This document shows positions 53,644 to 63,620 of a stretch of DNA of 64,000 nt, piece after piece. Every line of letters starts with the position of its first letter. Within the stretch, counting starts at the first letter, position 1. The position numbers and the translations under genes were made by a program. Below the pieces are notes generated by a model. The model was not told where the DNA came from. It saw only the letters and a program-made list of their open reading frames with translations, and ran no database searches. Source of the stretch: Elusimicrobium minutum. GTDB taxonomy: Bacteria > Elusimicrobiota > Elusimicrobia > Elusimicrobiales > UBA9959. The stretch covers positions 1 to 64,000 of the forward strand of contig DYIF01000007.1 of assembly GCA_020723765.1 (NCBI GenBank), read 5' to 3'.

Positions 53644-54873
53644 ATGATAGATCTTGTCAAAAATCTGGCTACCGCGCCGAGAAGAACCAAAGCTTCCGTC
53701 ATCAGAGAACTTTTGAAACTCACAAACAAACCTGGAATAATATCTTTTGCGGGAGGTCTCCCGGACCCCGAAGTTTTCCCGTACGATTTCATAACCGATT
53801 CCGTTAAAAGAATTATGGATAAGAAAGGCAAAGTCGCTTTGCAATACGGTCCTACCGAAGGGCTTCCGGAGTTAAAAGAAGAATTTATTAAATTTTTGGA
53901 AAAAGAAGAGGGTTTAAAGGTAAAACCGGAAAATCTTTTGATTACCACCGCTTCTCAACAGGCGCTTGACATAGTGGGAAGATTGTTTATTGACGCATCC
54001 GATCCGATACTTGTCGAGCTTCCGAGTTACATGGGCGGTTTACAGGTTTTTAAATCTTACGGATGCGATTTTGTCGGCGTTAGAATGAGCGACACCGACG
54101 GAATAATAACGACCGAGCTTGAAGAGAAACTGGAATGGCTTAAAAATCAAGACGAGCATTATAAGTTTTTGTATCTCGTTCCAGATTTCCAAAACCCTAG
54201 CGGAGTTACGCTTTCCGAAAAGAAAAGAAAAAGAATAGTGGAAATTTCAGAAAAATATAACATAGCGGTCATAGAAGATTCTCCTTACAGGCAGATAAGA
54301 TTTGAAGGGAAGGCCCCAAAAATGATTTATAAGATAGATAAGGAAACAAAAAATACCGATAATATCATATCTCTTTTTACCATATCCAAGACATTTGCTC
54401 CGGGGCTCAGGATAGGAATCATACTAGCAAACGAACAGATAATAAAAAAGATGGTGATATTAAAGCAATCTTTAGATCTTTGTACCTCGAGCTTAAATCA
54501 GCTTATAGCCGCGGATTTCTTCGCTTCCGGAGAATTTTATAAACATGTAGAAAAGGTTAAAAAGGTTTATAAGACAAAGAAAGACGCTATGCTTGCGGCG
54601 TTAGAAAAATATATGCCGGAAGGAGTTACCTGGACAAGACCCGAGGGCGGGCTTTTCTTATGGGTTAAACTTCCCGAAGGCATAAGCGCCGACGACATGT
54701 TTGCCGACGCCATAAAAGAAAATGTCGCTTACGTAATAGGTTCCGCTTTCCATGTGGACGGTAGCGGAAAAAATACGATGAGACTTAATTTCTCATACGC
54801 CACATTGGATGAAATAGAAGAAGGAATAAAGAGACTTTCAAAAGCCGTAAAAAGCAGGATGGTAAGAAAATAA
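53644..54873 (+). CDS. PLP-dependent aminotransferase, class I/II (2-aminoadipate/MocR-type fold)
   Basis: 409 residues, cytosolic. Motifs: ISFAGGLPDPEVFPYDFITD, LQYGPTEGLPELKEEF, LVPDFQNPSGVTLSEKKRKR, IEDSPYRQIRF and the PLP lysine in FTISKTFAPGLRIGIILAN. It belongs to the LysN/KAT-like group; the substrate cannot be fixed. GGAGG lies 5 bases upstream. It converges on the BMC locus. Confidence 0.92.
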   Translation: MIDLVKNLATAPRRTKASVIRELLKLTNKPGIISFAGGLPDPEVFPYDFITDSVKRIMDKKGKVALQYGPTEGLPELKEEFIKFLEKEEGLKVKPENLLITTASQQALDIVGRLFIDASDPILVELPSYMGGLQVFKSYGCDFVGVRMSDTDGIITTELEEKLEWLKNQDEHYKFLYLVPDFQNPSGVTLSEKKRKRIVEISEKYNIAVIEDSPYRQIRFEGKAPKMIYKIDKETKNTDNIISLFTISKTFAPGLRIGIILANEQIIKKMVILKQSLDLCTSSLNQLIAADFFASGEFYKHVEKVKKVYKTKKDAMLAALEKYMPEGVTWTRPEGGLFLWVKLPEGISADDMFADAIKENVAYVIGSAFHVDGSGKNTMRLNFSYATLDEIEEGIKRLSKAVKSRMVRK

Positions 54874-54895: not shown

Positions 54896-55141
54896 TTACT
54901 CTTTTATTATTATCTTTATGTTTTCGTAATCTATCCAGTCCATCGATAGAGGACTTATTATCGAGTTGGGGGGAATGGTTATCGTTTTGGAGTTTTTGTC
55001 GTAGTATTTTTTTCTTATTTCGTAGTCGCTTATAAATATTTTTTTAACGGCTTTTTTTTCTTCTTTAGCGTCGATTTTTCTAATCTTAGGTTTTCCGTAT
55101 ATCTTTGAATATACTATATCGACTATATGTTTTATCTGCAT
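54896..55141 (-). CDS. Small protein at the distal end of the BMC operon
   Basis: I start at the ATG at 55141 (81 residues), since an ATG at 55162 lies inside a terminator-like hairpin. The C-terminal half, KIFISDYEIRKKYYDKNSKT then ITIPPNSIISPLSMDWIDYE, resembles a segment found at the N-terminus of EutT-like and some other BMC-linked proteins (pattern I-x-V-P-x-x-x-I-x-T-P-L-A). No catalytic motif. Transcription would need readthrough or its own promoter. Confidence 0.5.
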   Translation of the reverse strand: MQIKHIVDIVYSKIYGKPKIRKIDAKEEKKAVKKIFISDYEIRKKYYDKNSKTITIPPNSIISPLSMDWIDYENIKIIIKE

Positions 55142-55143
55142 AC

Positions 55144-55172
55144 CAAAAATTACGGGGGGCATTTCGCCCCCC
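55144..55172 (-). terminator. Terminator-like hairpin after the last shell gene
   Basis: On the minus strand GGGGGGC-GAAAT-GCCCCCC (7-bp stem, 55154-55172) is followed by GTAATTTTTG. It comes 15 bases after the stop of the BMC-H gene at 55187. Confidence 0.7.
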
Positions 55173-55186
55173 CCGATAGTTTTTTA

Positions 55187-55483
55187 TCAGTCTAATTTAA
55201 CCGATATTTTTTCTATGTATTTGTTTAAATCGTCATGAGGTCTCGGTATTACATGAGTGCCTATCAACTCTCCGACTTTCTGCGCCGCGGCCGCGCCGGC
55301 TTCTACCGCCGCTCTAACCGCTCCAACCTCTCCTACGCATAAAGTGGTCACATATCCCGAACCTATTTTTTCATAACCTATCAATCTGACCTTGGCGGCT
55401 TTCGCCATTGCGTCAGAGGCTTCTATCATTCCTATGAATCCTTTTGTTTCAACCATTCCAAGCGCTTCTTTTAATATCGACAT
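55187..55483 (-). CDS. BMC-H shell protein 1
   Basis: Single-domain hexameric microcompartment shell protein (PF00936), 98 residues: [79 protein letters not shown]. It belongs to the PduA/CcmK type with the pore loop KIGSG. GGAGGAAAA precedes the ATG. Paralogue of the BMC-H at 59867. Confidence 0.97.
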
Positions 55484-55501: not shown

Positions 55502-56458
55502 TTAATATTTCCCGCCGCCGGCGTCTTTTCCGGTTACTATCGCCACGCTTGCGCTCGTTCCGAGTCTGGTGGCTCCCGCTTTCACCATCTCTGAGGCGGT
55601 TTTCGAGTCTCTTATTCCGCCGGAAGCTTTTACTCCCATATCGGGACCGACTACTTCTCTCATAAGTTTTACATCCTCAACTGTGGCTCCGTGAGGACCG
55701 AACCCCGTGGAAGTTTTTACAAAATCCGCGCCGGCTTCTTTTGACATTTTACATGCCCTTATCTTTTCGTCTCTCGTAAGATAAGCGGTTTCTATTATTA
55801 CTTTTAATATCTTTCCTCTCGTGGCTTCTCTTACCGCTTTTATGTCTTCCAAAACCAGTTGATCGTTTCCCGATTTTAAAGCTCCTATGTTTATTACCAT
55901 ATCTATTTCGTCCGCTCCCGCGGCTATTGCGTCTCTGGCTTCTATGGCTTTAACGGTAGGAGTGGTGGAGCCTAAAGGGAAACCTATGACCGTACATACT
56001 TTGACGTTGCTTCCTTTTAAAAGTCTCGATGCTAAAGAAACATAAGCCGGGTTTACGCATACCGACGCGAAATTATACTGCCTTGCTTCCTGACATAGCT
56101 TGCCTATTTCTTCCTGCGTGGCGTTTGCTTTAAGCAACGTGTGGTCTATCATGGATGCAAACTGTGAACAATCCGAGCCGGGATTACAGAAGCTTATTCT
56201 ATCGGCTCCCATTTGTTTCACTTCGCTTGCGCTGAATTTCCCCTGAGGACTGCAGGATTTGCAGTTCGGCCCGCAGGTGTTTTCTTCGCATATGTCGTTT
56301 TTTTCTTTTTGATTTTGTTGGCTGTTTACAAGCGGATTTCTAAATACCTTGCCGGCGGTTCCTATGTTTACGGAGTCTCCGGGCATTTTGAATTTTTTTT
56401 CTTCTTTAAGTATCTTTGCCACTTCCTGGGCTATCTTTTTTATTTCTTCGTCACGCAT
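55502..56458 (-). CDS. deoC: Microcompartment deoxyribose-phosphate aldolase with Cys-rich linker
   Basis: Cleaves 2-deoxyribose-5-phosphate to acetaldehyde and glyceraldehyde-3-phosphate. 318 residues against about 220-260 for plain DeoC. Residues 1-23 ([20 protein letters not shown]) form an amphipathic helix typical of BMC encapsulation peptides, nearly the same as that of the aldehyde dehydrogenase. A linker follows with Cys at 57, 62, 66, 69, 91 and 97. The catalytic TIM barrel (about 98-310) has [45 protein letters not shown] and the Schiff-base Lys in [14 protein letters not shown]. Overlaps the BMC-P gene by 8 bases. Confidence 0.95.
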
Positions 56459-56750
56459 ATTTTTTCTCCTCTTTTTTGTAATTTACCGAATCCAGTATCC
56501 CCGCAACCACGGTCCTTACCGGCGCTTTTAAATCTTTTATTATTTTTCTCGCCGAACCCCCTTCGTCCAATATCAAGACTATATCTCCGGGGCCCGCTCC
56601 CATATCTTTGTCCACCGCCATGGTAGCTTCGCCAGTAAGTTTGTCCGGGTTTATAGGATCTATGGCTTTCACTATTAAAAGTTTTAAGTTATTAAGATGT
56701 TTATGTTTTCTGGTCGCCCATACGTTTCCTATTACTTTACCCACAAACAT
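56451..56750 (-). CDS. BMC-P (EutN/CcmL) shell vertex protein 1
   Basis: 99 residues, pentamer capping shell vertices: [74 protein letters not shown]. It overlaps both neighbours (8 bases with deoC, 1 base with the next BMC-P). Confidence 0.95.
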
Positions 56751-57067
56751 TATTTTATCTCCTTATTTTTTTCCGTTATATTTTTCCCGTCTATTATCCC
56801 GACTATGGCCGCATCTACGGGGGGAAGCGGTTCGTTTATTAAAACATCACCGCCCCAATCTTCAAAAGCGACTATGGCTTCTCTGGCCGCCACATAAAAA
56901 ACATTCTCTCCCGCACCCGCTCCAACGGTATCCGCCGCGACTATGGGTTCCCCGACGGGAGTGTCCGTTTCCCAATCTAAAGGTTGAATTAAAAGCAAAG
57001 TTTTTTTATCGGTTCCGCAACATTGTCTCGATGCAAATACTCTTCCTATTACTTTTGCCTGTTTCAT
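56750..57067 (-). CDS. BMC-P (EutN/CcmL) shell vertex protein 2
   Basis: 105 residues: QAKVIGRVFASRQCCGTDKK, LLLIQPLDWETDTPVGEPIV, AADTVGAGAGENVFYVAARE, VDAAIVGIIDGKNIT. It has a Cys-Cys pair near the N-terminus and an insert (FEDWGGDVLINEPLPP) replacing the GSAR loop, so it is the most divergent of the three. Confidence 0.92.
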   Translation of the reverse strand: MKQAKVIGRVFASRQCCGTDKKTLLLIQPLDWETDTPVGEPIVAADTVGAGAGENVFYVAAREAIVAFEDWGGDVLINEPLPPVDAAIVGIIDGKNITEKNKEIK

Positions 57068-57068
57068 A

Positions 57069-57512
57069 TTAATATTTATTTTCTATCGCGGTTATTTTGT
57101 CCAATCTCTTTTGGTATTTTCCGCCTTCAAAAGGAGTGTTTAGCCAGGTTTTGGTTATTTCCTGCAAGGCGAGCTCCCCGTGAGTTTTGCCTCCGAGGCA
57201 AAGTATGTTGCAATTTTCGTGAGCCGAGGCGAATCTCGCCGATATTATATCGTAAGCGCAAACGGCTCTTATCCCGTGAATCTTATTGGCCGCCAACGGC
57301 ATCGCCCCGCCGAAACCGTCTATAAGAATCCCTTTTTCAAATTCTTTGTTTTTTATCGCTTCTCCGACAAGCATGGCTATATCGGTAAAATCCACGGGGT
57401 CGGTGGAATAACAACCGAAGTCTATAACGTCGTGGCCCAGAGATTGCAAGAATTTTTTTAATTTTTCTTTCGCTTCAAATCCGGCATGGTCCGAACCTAT
57501 TACTATTTTCAT
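57069..57512 (-). CDS. rpiB: RpiB-like sugar-phosphate isomerase, catalytic Cys replaced
   Basis: 147 residues, RpiB/LacAB family: IGSDHAGFEAKEKLKKFLQS at the N-terminus, AANKIHGIRAVCAYD and HENCNILCLGGKTHGELALQ. In E. coli RpiB the catalytic base is Cys66 in CGTGIG; here the aligned segment is GILIDGFGGAM with Asp65, and Thr68 becomes Phe67. His98 aligns with His99. Asp could serve as base, as Glu does in some mycobacterial enzymes, so it may isomerise ribose-5-phosphate or a related sugar phosphate. There is no encapsulation peptide. Confidence 0.9.
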   Translation of the reverse strand: MKIVIGSDHAGFEAKEKLKKFLQSLGHDVIDFGCYSTDPVDFTDIAMLVGEAIKNKEFEKGILIDGFGGAMPLAANKIHGIRAVCAYDIISARFASAHENCNILCLGGKTHGELALQEITKTWLNTPFEGGKYQKRLDKITAIENKY

Positions 57513-57521
57513 AAGGACTCC

Positions 57522-58070
57522 TTATAATATGTTAAGCATATCCGGGTGGGCGTTGGGTATGACGATTCTGTTTACTATAGCATTTTCCCCTACGGCTTTA
57601 ACTCCGGCGCTTATGGCGGTTTTTACCGCTCCCACTTCTCCGTTTATCGTAAAATATCCTTTTCCGCCTATTCCCGAACCGGTTTTTATTTCCACTATCT
57701 CTACATAAGCGGCTTTTAAAGCCGCATCGGCCGCATAAACCGAGCTTACTGCGTCTTTGGTTTCTATAACCCCTATCGCTTCCACTTTTTCTATTTTCAC
57801 TTTTTTATTGAGAGCCTGCAATACTCCTTTGTGAACGTTTCTTATTATGTATTTGTCTATAAGATCTTTTCCGGCTATTTCGCCGCCCCTTGTTAAGGCC
57901 GATTCCACTTCGGCGACGGTTCCGGATATAAAAATGATATATTTCCCTTTTGCCGTGGCAAAAGCGGATTCCAATTTTATTTCGGACATTTTTCTCATAG
58001 CGTCGGCGGTTTCTATGCCTTTTGCTATAGAGGACAATTCAACTAAACCTATGGATATGTTCGCTTGCAT
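57522..58070 (-). CDS. BMC-T shell protein 1 (tandem domain, no pore Cys)
   Basis: 182 residues with two BMC domains: ISIGLVELSSIAKGIETADA plus EAIGVIETKDAVSSVYAADA. Trimer forming pseudohexameric tiles. At the position of the PduT cluster cysteine the sequence reads TAKGKY, so no Fe-S cluster is expected; the second domain has GIGGKGYFTI. Together with the other BMC-T it could provide a metabolite pore. Confidence 0.94.
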   Translation of the reverse strand: MQANISIGLVELSSIAKGIETADAMRKMSEIKLESAFATAKGKYIIFISGTVAEVESALTRGGEIAGKDLIDKYIIRNVHKGVLQALNKKVKIEKVEAIGVIETKDAVSSVYAADAALKAAYVEIVEIKTGSGIGGKGYFTINGEVGAVKTAISAGVKAVGENAIVNRIVIPNAHPDMLNIL

Positions 58071-58083
58071 AATATTCCTCCTA

Positions 58084-59493
58084 TTATGCTATTCTTAAAT
58101 AACCTACCAGAGAGCACTGGAGCGGTCTTGTAAAATGAGTGGGCTTTGTTATCCCGTCTCCCGTAGGAGTTCCTATGGACATCGAAGCGTATCCTTCTCC
58201 CATTCCGAGTCCGTGAAGAGTGCATGCGTTTTTAACGAATATAGAACATGCCATTCTTCTGGCCATCTTGGTCATGTTCTCCACATTCATCGAATATAAG
58301 CCGCTTGTATGATGGTTTTCCCATTCGACTTTATAAGCTAAATCCACCGCTTCGTCGAAATTTTTAACCGATGTTATCGGAAGTACCGGCATTAGTTGTT
58401 CGGATATTACAAATGGATGGTCGTTTGACGTTTCCGCCCATAATACCCTTATCTCGTCGCTTAAATTTAAACCTATCGCTTTTGCTATTACCGACGGATT
58501 TCTCCCTACGAAATCCCTATTTAATTTAGGCTCCTGCCCCGGTTCCGGTATGGCTATTTTGGCTAAAGCGTCTATCTGTGAAGAATTTAATTCGTATGCA
58601 TACGGATTTTTTCTTAAAGCTTCAATAAAATCCTTTTTTATTTTTTCTACCAGGATTACTTCTTTTTCGGCTATACATAAAACATTATTATCAAAACCGC
58701 ATCCGAATACTATTTGATCTGCGGCAAGCTTCAAATCTGCGGTTTCGTCGACTACTATCGGGGGATTCCCGGGTCCCGCGGCTATCGTTTTTCTGGCTTT
58801 TCCGGACTGCATTGCGACCTTGACTATCGCTGGCCCTCCGGTTACTATGGTCATATTGATTTTATCGTGGGTCAATAAAGCTTTTGTGGCTTCTTGAGTC
58901 GGGTTTGATATGGTGGAAACTAAGTTTTCCGGCCCTCCGGCTGATACTATGGCGTTATCTAAAATTTTTACAGCGTCCGCCACGCATCCTTTTGCCGCGG
59001 GGTGGGGGGAGAAAACCACCGAGTTTCCCGCGGATAAAATGGCTATGGCATTGCTTATTATAGTGGCTACGGCGTTTGTGGAAGGAGTTATCGCGGCGAC
59101 TACACCGAAAGGAGCGTATTCAACCAGAGTAAGTCCTTTGTCTCCGGTGTAGGATACGGAATGTAAATCTTCCACTCCGGGAGTTTTTTCCGCTACCAGA
59201 ATGTTTTTTGTTATTTTATCGTTAACTCTTCCCATTTTAGTTTCATCTACGGCCATCTCTGCCCATCTTTTTGCGTTTATCTTTGAAACCTCTCTTATGG
59301 CTGTTATTATTTTTTCTCTTTTCTCAAGTCCCAAACTTTGAAAATATTGTTGAGCTTCGGCCGATTTTTTTATAGCGGAGTCGAAGGTATCGAAAATCGG
59401 TCCCTCATCCGAGCTTTTTTCGTTCGGCTCGGATTCCAAATTTTTAACGACCTCTTGTATTATTTTCTTTATATCTTCTTCGTTTATGGGCAT
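58084..59493 (-). CDS. CoA-acylating aldehyde dehydrogenase (PduP/EutE type)
   Basis: Oxidises acetaldehyde to acetyl-CoA with NAD+. 469 residues. N-terminal encapsulation-type helix MPINEEDIKKIIQEVVKNLE, an acidic linker, then the dehydrogenase domain: FGVVAAITPSTNAVATIISN, VTGGPAIVKVAMQSGKARKT, AAGPGNPPIVVDETADLKLA and the catalytic Cys in GFDNNVLCIAEKEV. Ends with FTRPLQCSLVGYLRIA. It is the signature enzyme next to deoC and pduL. Confidence 0.96.
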   Translation of the reverse strand: MPINEEDIKKIIQEVVKNLESEPNEKSSDEGPIFDTFDSAIKKSAEAQQYFQSLGLEKREKIITAIREVSKINAKRWAEMAVDETKMGRVNDKITKNILVAEKTPGVEDLHSVSYTGDKGLTLVEYAPFGVVAAITPSTNAVATIISNAIAILSAGNSVVFSPHPAAKGCVADAVKILDNAIVSAGGPENLVSTISNPTQEATKALLTHDKINMTIVTGGPAIVKVAMQSGKARKTIAAGPGNPPIVVDETADLKLAADQIVFGCGFDNNVLCIAEKEVILVEKIKKDFIEALRKNPYAYELNSSQIDALAKIAIPEPGQEPKLNRDFVGRNPSVIAKAIGLNLSDEIRVLWAETSNDHPFVISEQLMPVLPITSVKNFDEAVDLAYKVEWENHHTSGLYSMNVENMTKMARRMACSIFVKNACTLHGLGMGEGYASMSIGTPTGDGITKPTHFTRPLQCSLVGYLRIA

Positions 59494-59496
59494 AAA

Positions 59497-59802
59497 TTAT
59501 TCCATTTTATCTTTGGATTTTCTAAAAACTATTTTTCCGTCTTTCTCTATGGTATCCACTATTGCGAATATGGTGCAATCTACCGGAGTGTTTTCGGTTT
59601 TGGATGTTTGCCTCGCGCTTGAACCTTGAACTATTAAAACTAATTCTCCTTCTCCCGCTCCTACCGCGTCTATGGCGACTATGGGATTGCCTTTTGGCGA
59701 ATCGTCAAGTCCCACAGGTTGTACCATTAAAAGTTTGGTCCCTACCAGCTTATCGTCTTTTCTGGTGCATACCACATTGCCTACAACCCTTGCAAAAACC
59801 AT
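59497..59802 (-). CDS. BMC-P (EutN/CcmL) shell vertex protein 3
   Basis: 101 residues: FARVVGNVVCTRKDDKLVGT, LLMVQPVGLDDSPKGNPIVA, IDAVGAGEGELVLIVQGSSA, IFAIVDTI. It is the canonical EutN-like member. GGAGG lies 6 bases upstream, just after a strong hairpin (59824-59848). Confidence 0.95.
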   Translation of the reverse strand: MVFARVVGNVVCTRKDDKLVGTKLLMVQPVGLDDSPKGNPIVAIDAVGAGEGELVLIVQGSSARQTSKTENTPVDCTIFAIVDTIEKDGKIVFRKSKDKME

Positions 59803-59866: not shown

Positions 59867-60151
59867 TTATTTTTTCTTTTCTACGCTTATCGGCATCTTG
59901 CCTTCTAAGTCCTGGTGAGGCTGAGGTATTACATGAACCGAAACCACCTCTCCCACTTTCTGCGCGGCCGCCGCACCCGCGTCGCAGCTTGCTCTGCATG
60001 CCGCAACTTCTCCTCTAAACAAAACGGTAACAAGCCCGGAACCTATCTTTTCATATCCTACAAGCTTTACATTTGCGGCTTTTACCGCGGCATCCGCCGC
60101 CTCTATGCAAGCGACAAGTCCTCTTGTTTCTATCATTCCCAATGCTTCCAT
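59867..60151 (-). CDS. BMC-H shell protein 2
   Basis: 94 residues, single PF00936 domain: [85 protein letters not shown] before the ATG. First gene after the internal promoter, so probably the most abundant shell tile. Cys residues (VACIEA, ACRASC) distinguish it from the other BMC-H. Confidence 0.97.
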
Positions 60152-60274: not shown

Positions 60275-60907
60275 TTATATTATATAAACGGGATCTCCGG
60301 TTTTAACTCCGGCTGCGTTTGCCTCGTCCGTGTCTATATGGAACTCAAGCGCGTATTTATCGCTTACTCTGCATAAAACGCTTTCGTATATGGTTTCTTT
60401 GTCCGTTCCCGGAGAACACAAAACTCTTACTATTTGCTGGTCTTCTATTTTAAATTTTTTAGCGTCTTCCGGCGAAAAATGGATGTGTCTTTTGGATATT
60501 ATCACTCCCTTTGGAACGGTTATCTCGCCGTTTGGGCCTTTGATTTTTATGCCGGGAGAGTTTTCGATTTTGCCGGAATCTCTTATGGGGGGATTTAGTC
60601 CGAGTACTCTGGCGTCCGATGAGGATATCTCTATCTGGGTGTATCCCCTGCAAGGCCCTATCATTCTAACCCCTTTAAAAGTTCCTTTTTCGGTGGATAT
60701 ATCGACCTTCTCGTTGCAAGCGTAAAACCCGGGCTGAACTATTTTGCGATAAAGCGTGGGTTTGCAATTTTCTCCGAATAGTTTTTTAAAATCTTCCTCG
60801 GTTAAATGGATATGTCTGTTGGATACCCCCGCTGGTATCGGCATTTTTTCTCGTTCTTTTCTGAGTTTTAACTCTTTTAATATTTCGCTTACTATTTTTT
60901 CATCCAT
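60275..60907 (-). CDS. pduL: PduL phosphate propanoyl/acetyltransferase
   Basis: Makes acetyl-phosphate from acetyl-CoA and recycles CoA in the shell. 210 residues. N-terminal helix DEKIVSEILKELKLRKERE is an encapsulation peptide. Two PduL domains with zinc-binding His motifs: VSNRHIHLTEEDFKKLFG and ISKRHIHFSPEDAKKFKI, plus LEFHIDTDEANAAG at the end. Acetate kinase is not in the window. Confidence 0.96.
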   Translation of the reverse strand: MDEKIVSEILKELKLRKEREKMPIPAGVSNRHIHLTEEDFKKLFGENCKPTLYRKIVQPGFYACNEKVDISTEKGTFKGVRMIGPCRGYTQIEISSSDARVLGLNPPIRDSGKIENSPGIKIKGPNGEITVPKGVIISKRHIHFSPEDAKKFKIEDQQIVRVLCSPGTDKETIYESVLCRVSDKYALEFHIDTDEANAAGVKTGDPVYII

Positions 60908-60929: not shown

Positions 60930-61697
60930 TTATTTGCTTAAAACTTTCTGGTAATGTATTACTCTTAAAAATTTATCCGCTTTTAAGCTTTCGCCTCCGA
61001 CAAGCGCTCCGTCTATGTTGGGTTTTGCCATAAGTTCGTCTATGTTTTCGGCTTTGACCGAGCCTCCGTATAATATTCTTATATTTTCCGATGTGTTGGT
61101 ATCGTACAACCTCGATATCTCTTTCCTTACGAATATATGAGCGTCTTCCGCCTGGTCGGGAGTCGCTGTTTTCCCGGTTCCTATCGCCCACACCGGCTCG
61201 TAAGCTATCACTATTGCGGACAAATCTTCTTTCGATATCTCTTTTAGCCCGTTTTGAATTTGGGTTTGCAATACTCTGTAGGTTTGATTGTTTTCTCTCT
61301 CTTCCAATGTTTCTCCTATGCAAAATATGACCTTTAAATTGTTTTTAAGAGCGGATTTTATTTTTTTGTTTAGCGTCTCGTCGGTTTCTCCGAATATTTT
61401 TCTTCTTTCGGAATGGCCAATTATGACATAGTCGCATCCGATGTCTTTTAATTGTAATGGAGAAACTTCTCCGGTAAAGGCTCCTTTTTCTTCCCAGCAC
61501 ATATTTTGAGCCGATAGCAATATTTTCGAATCGAAAATTATGTTTTTAACGGTTTCCAGATTTGTAAAACTCGGAGCAAGCAATACTTCGTGTTTTAAAT
61601 CCGGGTCGAGCCCTTTTTTAATCGCGCTTGCAAGCTCCCCGGCTTCTTTTCTTGTAAGATGCATCTTCCAATTTCCCGCAATCATCGGCTTTCTCAT
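60930..61697 (-). CDS. tpiA: Triosephosphate isomerase encoded in the BMC operon
   Basis: 255 residues: MIAGNWKMHLTRKEAGELAS, catalytic His in DYVIIGHSERRKIFGE, catalytic Glu in VIAYEPVWAIGTGKTATPDQ, and phosphate loops ILYGGSVKAENIDEL and GALVGGESL. No N-terminal encapsulation helix, so it is probably cytosolic, converting glyceraldehyde-3-phosphate from DeoC to dihydroxyacetone phosphate. GGAGG before the ATG. Confidence 0.97.
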   Translation of the reverse strand: MRKPMIAGNWKMHLTRKEAGELASAIKKGLDPDLKHEVLLAPSFTNLETVKNIIFDSKILLSAQNMCWEEKGAFTGEVSPLQLKDIGCDYVIIGHSERRKIFGETDETLNKKIKSALKNNLKVIFCIGETLEERENNQTYRVLQTQIQNGLKEISKEDLSAIVIAYEPVWAIGTGKTATPDQAEDAHIFVRKEISRLYDTNTSENIRILYGGSVKAENIDELMAKPNIDGALVGGESLKADKFLRVIHYQKVLSK

Positions 61698-61723: not shown

Positions 61724-62272
61724 CTAAATATTTTCGGAAAATAACTCTTTTCTGGGATTCGGTATTATAACTTTGTCTACCAAAAGCCCTTTTTTAGAAA
61801 CCGCCATAGATCCGGCGTTAACCGCCGTTTCCACGGAAGCCACGGTTCCCGTCATCGTTACAAATCCTTTGCCGCCCAAAGCCATCGCTAATCTTATTTC
61901 TATAAGCTTTACATCCGCGGCTTTTACCGCGGCATCCGCCGCTTCTATTATTGCGGATACGGAAAAAGCTTCTATTACGCCTAAAGCCTTGGGCTCTTCT
62001 ATAATAACGGTGTTTTCTATGGCTTTGAGCACATCCTCATGGATGTTAGGTATTACGAAATTGTCTGCAAGACAATACGATGCTATCGATATTCCCGCCT
62101 CAACGCTTGCGTTTACGTCTCCCACATCTCCGGATATGAGTATCAGGTATTTTCCGGGACATATGCTTCTTGAAAGAATCAGTTTAACATCGGAGGTTTT
62201 TAGCATGTGGTCGGCAACCTGATAACCTTTGGCTATGCTTGAAAGTTCAACTCCGCCTATTGCGTTTAACAT
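61724..62272 (-). CDS. pduT: BMC-T shell protein 2, PduT-like with cluster cysteine
   Basis: 182 residues, two BMC domains. The first has SIAKGYQVADHMLKTSDVKL and SRSICPGKYLILISGDVGDV with Cys at residue 38, the position reported to ligate the [4Fe-4S] cluster in PduT; the second has ALGVIEAFSVSAIIEAADAA and LGGKGFVTMTGTVASVETAV. Its gene lies 4 bases behind the PduS-like gene. It may conduct electrons across the shell. Confidence 0.93.
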   Translation of the reverse strand: MLNAIGGVELSSIAKGYQVADHMLKTSDVKLILSRSICPGKYLILISGDVGDVNASVEAGISIASYCLADNFVIPNIHEDVLKAIENTVIIEEPKALGVIEAFSVSAIIEAADAAVKAADVKLIEIRLAMALGGKGFVTMTGTVASVETAVNAGSMAVSKKGLLVDKVIIPNPRKELFSENI

Positions 62273-62276
62273 AAAA

Positions 62277-63620
62277 TCATCCTATTATTTCTATATATTT
62301 AAAATTAACCTCACCTACGGTTCCGTCGATACTGGAATGAACCGGACATCCCAACTCCTTTTCTTCCACATCCGCTATTATCTGCCCTTTCTTTACCGCG
62401 TCTCCCTTTTTTACTATAGGTTTTGTCGAAACTCCTATATGCTGGGAAAGTAATATTTTAACTTTTTCGGGTTTATAATCAAAATTGGAATAAGGAGCCG
62501 GTTTGTCGTAATCGGAAAGTCCTAATTTTTTAATTAATTTTTTAACGGGCACTTTTCTGAATTCTCTTAACGGATGAGGTTCTTTAGGCTTTATTTGAGA
62601 TACCGCGGAATTTTTTATTCCTATTTTCATTTCCCTTAAATTATTTTTAGATTTTACGCATACCTCTTTGGGATTTAGGTTTTCGGGACAGGAATATAAA
62701 CTGCATAATGAGCATTCGCAACATAAAAGAGAATATTCGTTGTGTATTTTTGATTCTTTCGGGTTGAATAAAAGGCTCCTCATGGATCTATGAGGCTGAA
62801 CGGAGTGTCCCAGCAAGTATCTCGGACAAAATTCGGTACAAAAAGAGCACTGGTCGCATGCGGATTTTCCTATTCTGGAAAATTGTTCTACGCCTTGAGT
62901 TTTCTTTTTTATAAGAGGATGGTCCGCCGCCAGAACTATTATTCCGGCCGATGTTTTGGTAACTTGAGTTTCGAGGTCGGTTATTACTTTTCCCATCATA
63001 GGTCCGCCGTCTATTCCGACGGGATTTTTCACGGTTGTTCCTTGGCAAAATTCTATCGCTTCTTTATAACTTATCCCTATCGGAACCTTGATAGTGGAAG
63101 GTTTTTTTACCGCTCCCGTAACGGTTATAAACTTTTCGACCACCGGCGTTTTGTTTGACAGAGATATATTGTAAACGGTTTCCACATTGTTAACAACGCA
63201 TCCTACGCTTAAAGGAATTTCTCCGGGAGGAATTATTCTTTTCGTCGTTTCGTACACCAGGCAAAATTCGTCTCCGGCGGGATAAAAATCTCCCAATTTG
63301 AAAACCGATATGTTTTCTTCTTTTCGGCATTCCTTTTCCAATTTTTCTATAAGCTTTTCGTGTTTTTTCTTTATTCCTATTATTCCCTTTTTTGCTCCTA
63401 CGCTTTTCATTAAAAGTTTGATTCCGTTTATTACTTCTTCCGTAAAAAATTCCATTATTATCTGGTCTTTTCTCAATAAAGGTTCGCATTCCGCTGCGTT
63501 AAGTATGACTATTTCGGCTTGAGAGTTTGCTTTTACGTAGGTTGGAAAACCGGCTCCGCCCGAGCCGACTATACCGGCTTTTCTTATTTGTTTTACAAAA
63601 TTTTCTTTGTTAAATTCCAT
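62277..63620 (-). CDS. pduS: PduS/RnfC-like flavo-iron-sulfur protein
   Basis: 447 residues. GIVGSGGAGFPTYVKA and NAAECEPLLRKDQ mark the NADH/FMN-binding part of the RnfC/PduS family; SLBB-like residues 165-235; two [4Fe-4S] motifs CDQCSFCTEFCPRYLLGH (about 260-277) and CCECSLCSLYSCPENLNP; a C-terminal barrel-sandwich domain (LLSQHIGVSTKPIVKKGDAV). PduS binds PduT and reduces corrinoid in the Pdu system. Here no B12 enzyme is seen, so NADH oxidation with electron export is the likely role. Probably the first gene of the operon. Confidence 0.93.
   Translation of the reverse strand: MEFNKENFVKQIRKAGIVGSGGAGFPTYVKANSQAEIVILNAAECEPLLRKDQIIMEFFTEEVINGIKLLMKSVGAKKGIIGIKKKHEKLIEKLEKECRKEENISVFKLGDFYPAGDEFCLVYETTKRIIPPGEIPLSVGCVVNNVETVYNISLSNKTPVVEKFITVTGAVKKPSTIKVPIGISYKEAIEFCQGTTVKNPVGIDGGPMMGKVITDLETQVTKTSAGIIVLAADHPLIKKKTQGVEQFSRIGKSACDQCSFCTEFCPRYLLGHSVQPHRSMRSLLFNPKESKIHNEYSLLCCECSLCSLYSCPENLNPKEVCVKSKNNLREMKIGIKNSAVSQIKPKEPHPLREFRKVPVKKLIKKLGLSDYDKPAPYSNFDYKPEKVKILLSQHIGVSTKPIVKKGDAVKKGQIIADVEEKELGCPVHSSIDGTVGEVNFKYIEIIG

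Follow-up and report, generated by a model that had tools for sequence, protein, structure and literature searches.

Metabolosomes of the sugar phosphate utilisation (SPU) type are defined by the combination of DeoC and RpiB (PMC4207490, PMC8217296). A triosephosphate isomerase (TIM) was part of their first description. The question how metabolosomes lacking an alcohol dehydrogenase (ADH) recycle NAD+ was raised in 2014 (PMC4207490). For other types of bacterial microcompartment (BMC) it has already been published that electrons may leave through the shell by way of PduS and PduT. This was proposed for the GRM microcompartments (PMC6325248) and for the isethionate BMC of Bilophila wadsworthia (PMC8667426), and also for the ethanolamine BMC of Listeria, according to the passages of this literature in which that proposal is cited (PMC6325248, PMC8667426). 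The PduS of PDU and GRM systems is a four-domain protein and PduT a tandem BMC protein with a pore cysteine, which were hypothesised to form an electron conduit (Ferlez et al. 2019, PMC6325248). For homologues it is known that PduS oxidises NADH, that it contacts PduT and that PduT holds a cluster with a potential of +99 mV (PMC6325248).

The window, that is, the whole stretch of 64,000 nucleotides analysed here, contains a BMC operon (Table 1) that is a new member of the known SPU type. A DeoC-type aldolase (pfam01791) and an RpiB-type isomerase (pfam02502) are encoded together with BMC-H, BMC-T and BMC-P shell proteins, an acylating aldehyde dehydrogenase (AldDH) and PduL. The locus shares DeoC, RpiB, AldDH, PduL, PduS and TIM with the published SPU metabolosomes (Axen 2014, PMC4207490; Sutter 2021, PMC8217296); as here, the published description includes no ADH, and there is no essential difference. 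In contrast to the PDU and GRM loci (PMC6325248), neither a B12 enzyme nor a glycyl radical enzyme nor an ADH is present. The Bilophila wadsworthia cluster likewise comprises AldDH, PduS and PduT without an ADH, but its signature enzyme is a glycyl radical enzyme, whereas DeoC takes that place here (PMC8667426). The host genome measures 2.1 Mb and is 98% complete; statements on the genome as a whole rest on family searches, by which six PF00936 domains were found, all of them within this locus.

Table 1. Genes of the SPU operon and the convergent neighbouring gene (window coordinates)
Feature	Position	Strand	Basis
PduS-like protein of 447 aa (NADH/FMN/2x[4Fe-4S]), heading the operon	62277..63620	-	Pfam domains, motifs; nearest solved relatives RnfC
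BMC-T 2, PduT-like, 182 aa, pore Cys38	61724..62272	-	two BMC domains; PduT structures 3NWG, 3PAC, 3N79
Triosephosphate isomerase (TIM)	60930..61697	-	PF00121, TIGR00419
PduL phosphotransacylase; N-terminal helix resembling encapsulation peptide	60275..60907	-	PF06130, NF011652; helix by inspection
BMC-H shell protein 1	59867..60151	-	EutM-like NF012018
BMC-P pentamer 1	59497..59802	-	EutN/CcmL
CoA-acylating AldDH, N-terminus like an encapsulation peptide; proposed NADH source	58084..59493	-	NF011927
BMC-T 1, no pore Cys (TAKGK)	57522..58070	-	ORF, BMC domains, alignment
RpiB/LacAB-type sugar-phosphate isomerase	57069..57512	-	PF02502, NF004051
BMC-P pentamer 2	56750..57067	-	CcmL/EutN
BMC-P pentamer 3	56451..56750	-	CcmL/EutN
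DeoC deoxyribose-phosphate aldolase, N-terminus like an encapsulation peptide	55502..56458	-	TIGR00126, 309.5 bits over 100-308
BMC-H shell protein 2	55187..55483	-	EutM-like
88-aa protein, last gene of operon, no clear family; N-terminal helix resembling encapsulation peptide	54896..55162	-	very weak TIGR02536
PLP aminotransferase, convergent with operon end	53644..54873	+	

The AldDH is 81-83% identical to the AldDHs of two Elusimicrobiota MAGs, which puts the host very probably in this phylum, and its Cys273 is invariant in 13 relatives. The gene of the 88-aa protein is conserved at this position in the majority of SPU loci from the class. Four other stretches (L174, L183, L185, L186) code for AldDHs about 58-63% identical to that of the window; no BMC gene was recognised in the parts fetched.

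The PduS-like protein unites Complex1_51K (pfam01512), SLBB (pfam10531), Fer4_17 (pfam13534) and RnfC_N (pfam13375), the four Pfam domains of PduS, in one soluble polypeptide. It contains the motif GSGGAGFP as well as the four-cysteine motifs CDQCSFCTEFCP and CCECSLCSLYSCP, which are the two [4Fe-4S] motifs that had been read in the first-pass annotation. RnfC is similar in that PduS scores barely above the TIGR01945 cut-off and that the closest solved structures are those of RnfC; PduS differs in being soluble, in its permuted domain order (RnfC_N at the C-terminus) and in the absence of the Rnf partners from the genome. Only 4 bp separate the gene from that of BMC-T 2, so that the two genes do abut as described before. 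BMC-T 2 has tandem BMC domains with a pore cysteine in the pattern C-P/S/A-G-K. Its Cys38, within SICPGK, aligns with the cysteines of 3PAC (icpgk) and 3NWG (vcpgk), confirming the likeness to PduT that had been claimed, and is replaced by serine in the structures 3N79/4NWN. The reading of TAKGK in BMC-T 1 was also correct, as alanine stands in FATAKGK where BMC-T 2 has Cys38. Against the PduT equivalog model TIGR02526 BMC-T 2 reached 137.8 bits, below the cut-off of 250.3 bits; by this model it is PduT-like but not a PduT equivalog.

Among unique sequences from related loci, all 68 BMC-T proteins encoded directly beside PduS have a cysteine at the position of Cys38. Those not scored as adjacent to PduS have alanine, serine, proline or histidine there, with 14 exceptions. 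Six of these belong to Bacteroidales loci without PduS; in seven PduS truly adjoins but the open frame overran the distance limit, and one (L172) stands on a contig that breaks off there. Judged from these alignments, the association of PduS with a cysteine-containing BMC-T is not due to chance. A PduT-like BMC-T precedes the AldDH in nine Bacteroidales SPU loci that lack PduS; the pore cysteine is present in six of them (L205, L208, L212, L217, L220, L230) and absent from three sister loci (L221, L223, L231).

As far as sequence can tell, the pair has everything that the PduS/PduT exit model needs, namely an NADH/FMN domain, two cluster motifs, a pore cysteine and conservation in tandem. The pair probably lets electrons out through the shell or is at least an oxygen-sensitive accessory, and we give roughly even chances to the more definite reading that it is an anaerobic exit from NADH to the shell of the SPU metabolosome. 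In this organelle, whose type degrades deoxyribose phosphate, the acylating AldDH would convert acetaldehyde and NAD+ to acetyl-CoA and NADH, and PduL would recycle the CoA. PduS would sit on the inner face of the BMC-T 2 trimer and oxidise luminal NADH via FMN and its two clusters, from where the electrons would pass to a cluster held by the three Cys38 residues in the trimer pore and on to a cytosolic acceptor. The pair would thus provide an anaerobic route for the recycling of NAD+, and lineages gaining a heme-copper respiratory chain would have repeatedly lost it or moved it outside the main operon.

The DeoC reaction is reversible, and the pathway could run toward sugar synthesis, from acetyl-CoA via acetaldehyde to deoxyribose phosphate, with the pair importing electrons. 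A direction from aldehyde to sugar was proposed for SPU loci of Atribacteria, according to a passage of PMC6776118 citing Nobu et al. We consider this reading very unlikely for the present locus, as PduT at +99 mV would be a poor electron route to NAD+ and catabolism fits PduL and TIM equally well or better. That the pair is the leftover of a cobalamin reductase system is scarcely credible: PduS is a cob(III)alamin reductase in PDU microcompartments (PMC6325248), but neither a B12 enzyme nor PduO is encoded in the locus, and the pair and its cysteine are strictly conserved.

The first-pass annotation had proposed the pair as an electron exit in place of an ADH. Its observation that the locus is devoid of ADH holds, since none was found in the operon, among the open reading frames of the window inspected from 40000 to 64000 or further out to base 84000 of the contig of 93250 bases. 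The genes upstream of the operon are unrelated as far as that base, and an encapsulated ADH just outside the window, which had been named as a finding that would refute the proposal, is likewise missing up to there. ADH-based recycling of NAD+ thus has no gene in or near the locus. The only Fe-ADH of the host genome (C10:15915-16421) could in principle be a cytosolic enzyme recruited through binding to the AldDH, in the way PduP recruits PduQ; some encapsulated ADHs without an encapsulation peptide do enter by this route (PMC6325248). Nevertheless, this explanation is highly improbable. The enzyme, which is of a YqhD/BDH-like cytosolic type, scored best with the YqhD-type model PRK15138 and poorly with EutG; it has no N-terminal extension, its gene adjoins a CoA ligase-like gene, and it is shared with a congener (G176) that yielded neither an SPU AldDH nor a BMC-T. 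Moreover, a clear Fe-ADH is missing altogether from many SPU genomes of the class; weak PF00465 matches (below about 45 bits) were presumed, as a group, to be related enzymes, for example dehydroquinate synthase or glycerol dehydrogenase, rather than ADHs. A Zn-ADH as hidden recycler was rejected, the sole PF08240 match of the genome being threonine dehydrogenase.

The comparison with related loci does not bear out the second half of the proposal. No Fe-ADH was found within the stretches fetched around SPU loci, whether the pair was present or absent, so that SPU microcompartments in general appear to have none in the locus. Four Zn-ADH matches lie several kilobases outside SPU operons, and the Zn dehydrogenases near two SPU loci (L214, L219) are at best Tdh- or inosose-dehydrogenase-like and stay under every cut-off. 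At least 26 SPU genomes of the Elusimicrobiota have neither PduS anywhere nor an ADH in the locus, and several of the 26 genomes without the pair have no Fe-ADH above the cut-off. NAD+ must therefore be recycled by other means in these lineages, so that NAD+ recycling in the SPU pathway can do without the pair. Since SPU loci are without Fe-ADH either way and many SPU genomes lack both, the absence of an ADH fails to explain the pair. Conversely, another BMC type of the Elusimicrobiota has the pair next to an Fe-ADH (L123). Hence the pair fits the exit model, but the idea that it replaces an ADH is rejected; the wording "instead of ADH" is misleading, and the pair follows the absence of heme-copper oxidase and not that of ADH. 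The second BMC type with PduS and a cysteine-containing PduT is seen in L123 and L124, and the Fe-ADH following in L123 is lactaldehyde-reductase-like.

About 80 loci were fetched from Elusimicrobiota and 295 genomes were used for co-occurrence. The pair co-occurs with the SPU AldDH: both were found in 62 genomes, the pair only in 6, the AldDH only in 27 and neither in 200. Wherever both ends are visible in the Elusimicrobiota loci, PduS and the cysteine-containing BMC-T are adjacent. The position of the pair varies: it heads the operon in the family of the window, whereas in outer families AldDH and RpiB flank it. In 20 genomes of the order and class it is a satellite of two genes at a great distance from the main locus. 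For the 26 SPU genomes without the pair the best PduS matches were at most 34 bits, a score that NuoF-type relatives also reach.

The pair is retained mostly in relatives lacking a heme-copper oxidase (PF00115; "oxidase" below refers to this type only). Among Elusimicrobiota SPU genomes an oxidase was present in 25 of 26 without the pair and in 12 of 46 with it (Fisher p 2.6e-9). A second set comprised loci of Bacteroidota, Spirochaetota, Atribacterota, Riflebacteria, Bacillota, Eremiobacterota and others, and a few Elusimicrobia (L190 is from the same genome as G090). In this set, in which the pair was scored by locus only, none of the 20 genomes with the pair in the locus had an oxidase versus 19 of 22 without (p 3.5e-9; 19 of 26 if the four truncated loci L207, L215, L228 and L236, none with an oxidase, are included). 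Both Fisher p-values are inflated by kinship, and the hypothesis was formed during inspection, the second set being scored afterwards. Where a PF00115 match of 140-220 bits lay in a frame of 730-800 aa, it was interpreted as a nitric oxide reductase, and a partial match of 141 bits in G205 was likewise scored as no oxidase; with all such doubtful matches rescored as oxidase, p was 2e-7. Phylogenetically independent pairs on the AldDH tree gave on average about 6 for and 0 against (median p 0.03), and p 0.125 in the reverse test.

The association fits either an exit made needless by aerobic respiration or an oxygen-labile accessory, and the data do not separate the two. Oxygen alone could be responsible if the clusters of the pore and of PduS are labile and aerobes lose the accessory whatever its role; an oxygen-related reason was proposed by Ferlez et al. 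for GRM2 loci (PMC6325248), and damage to exposed clusters explains the oxidase association equally well, which counts against the exit. As the full explanation we regard this as improbable. It leaves the function itself unexplained, and oxidase and pair coexist in 12 genomes of Elusimicrobiota, the pair being a satellite in 11 of them; an oxidase was found in 11 of the 20 genomes with a satellite pair versus 1 of the 26 with an integrated pair. The anaerobic exit is favoured over an oxygen-labile accessory because the pair is kept in 34 of 35 Elusimicrobiota SPU genomes without oxidase (20 of 23 in the second set).

The same retention bears on the alternative that NAD(H) is not recycled inside at all but is exchanged via shell pores or shell turnover and reoxidised in the cytosol by HydABC and complex I, the pair having another redox role such as scavenging or setting the redox state of the lumen. 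The SPU loci devoid of both the pair and an ADH speak for it, as does the gene content of the host, which encodes a bifurcating-type [FeFe] hydrogenase HydABC of the NADH-dependent group A6 beside Rex, and complex I (NuoF). A dispensable side role, however, predicts the retention poorly, and we hold this alternative to be unlikely, though to be taken seriously. HydABC of group A6 with Rex is located at L244:6744-13523, and the same genome has a second hydrogenase-like histidine-kinase fusion.

The acceptor is a difficulty for the anaerobic exit. If BMC-T 2 has a PduT-like potential, its electrons could at +99 mV neither make H2 nor reduce NAD+, and therefore either its potential differs or an acceptor of higher potential exists. 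Rnf is ruled out as acceptor, as PF02508 is absent from the genome by family search; with this and +99 mV, if valid for BMC-T 2, no acceptor is evident. No redox partner was recognised in selected translations of the extra open reading frames within the relatives' loci, and no conserved acceptor gene beside the satellite pairs, where only a PLP aminotransferase stood out.

In the literature searched we did not find the pattern of pair versus oxidase, the satellite form or the separation from ADH, and no mention of a link between the pair and the absence of oxidase was found in the SPU papers searched (PMC4207490, PMC8217296). According to the comparison, the pair should be important under anoxic conditions, and the matched natural variants with and without it make the exit testable in close relatives. 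More tentatively, the pair could be a portable anaerobic electron port that is kept without heme-copper oxidase, carried as a satellite in several oxidase-containing lineages and repeatedly lost in others, and electron transfer through the shell rather than alcohol formation could be the mode of NAD+ recycling of this whole widespread class of BMCs. Among 31 loci compared, satellites included, 10 have a relative of the PLP aminotransferase encoded next to the operon end adjoining PduS or BMC-T 2, and the pair may originally have been located in this neighbourhood.
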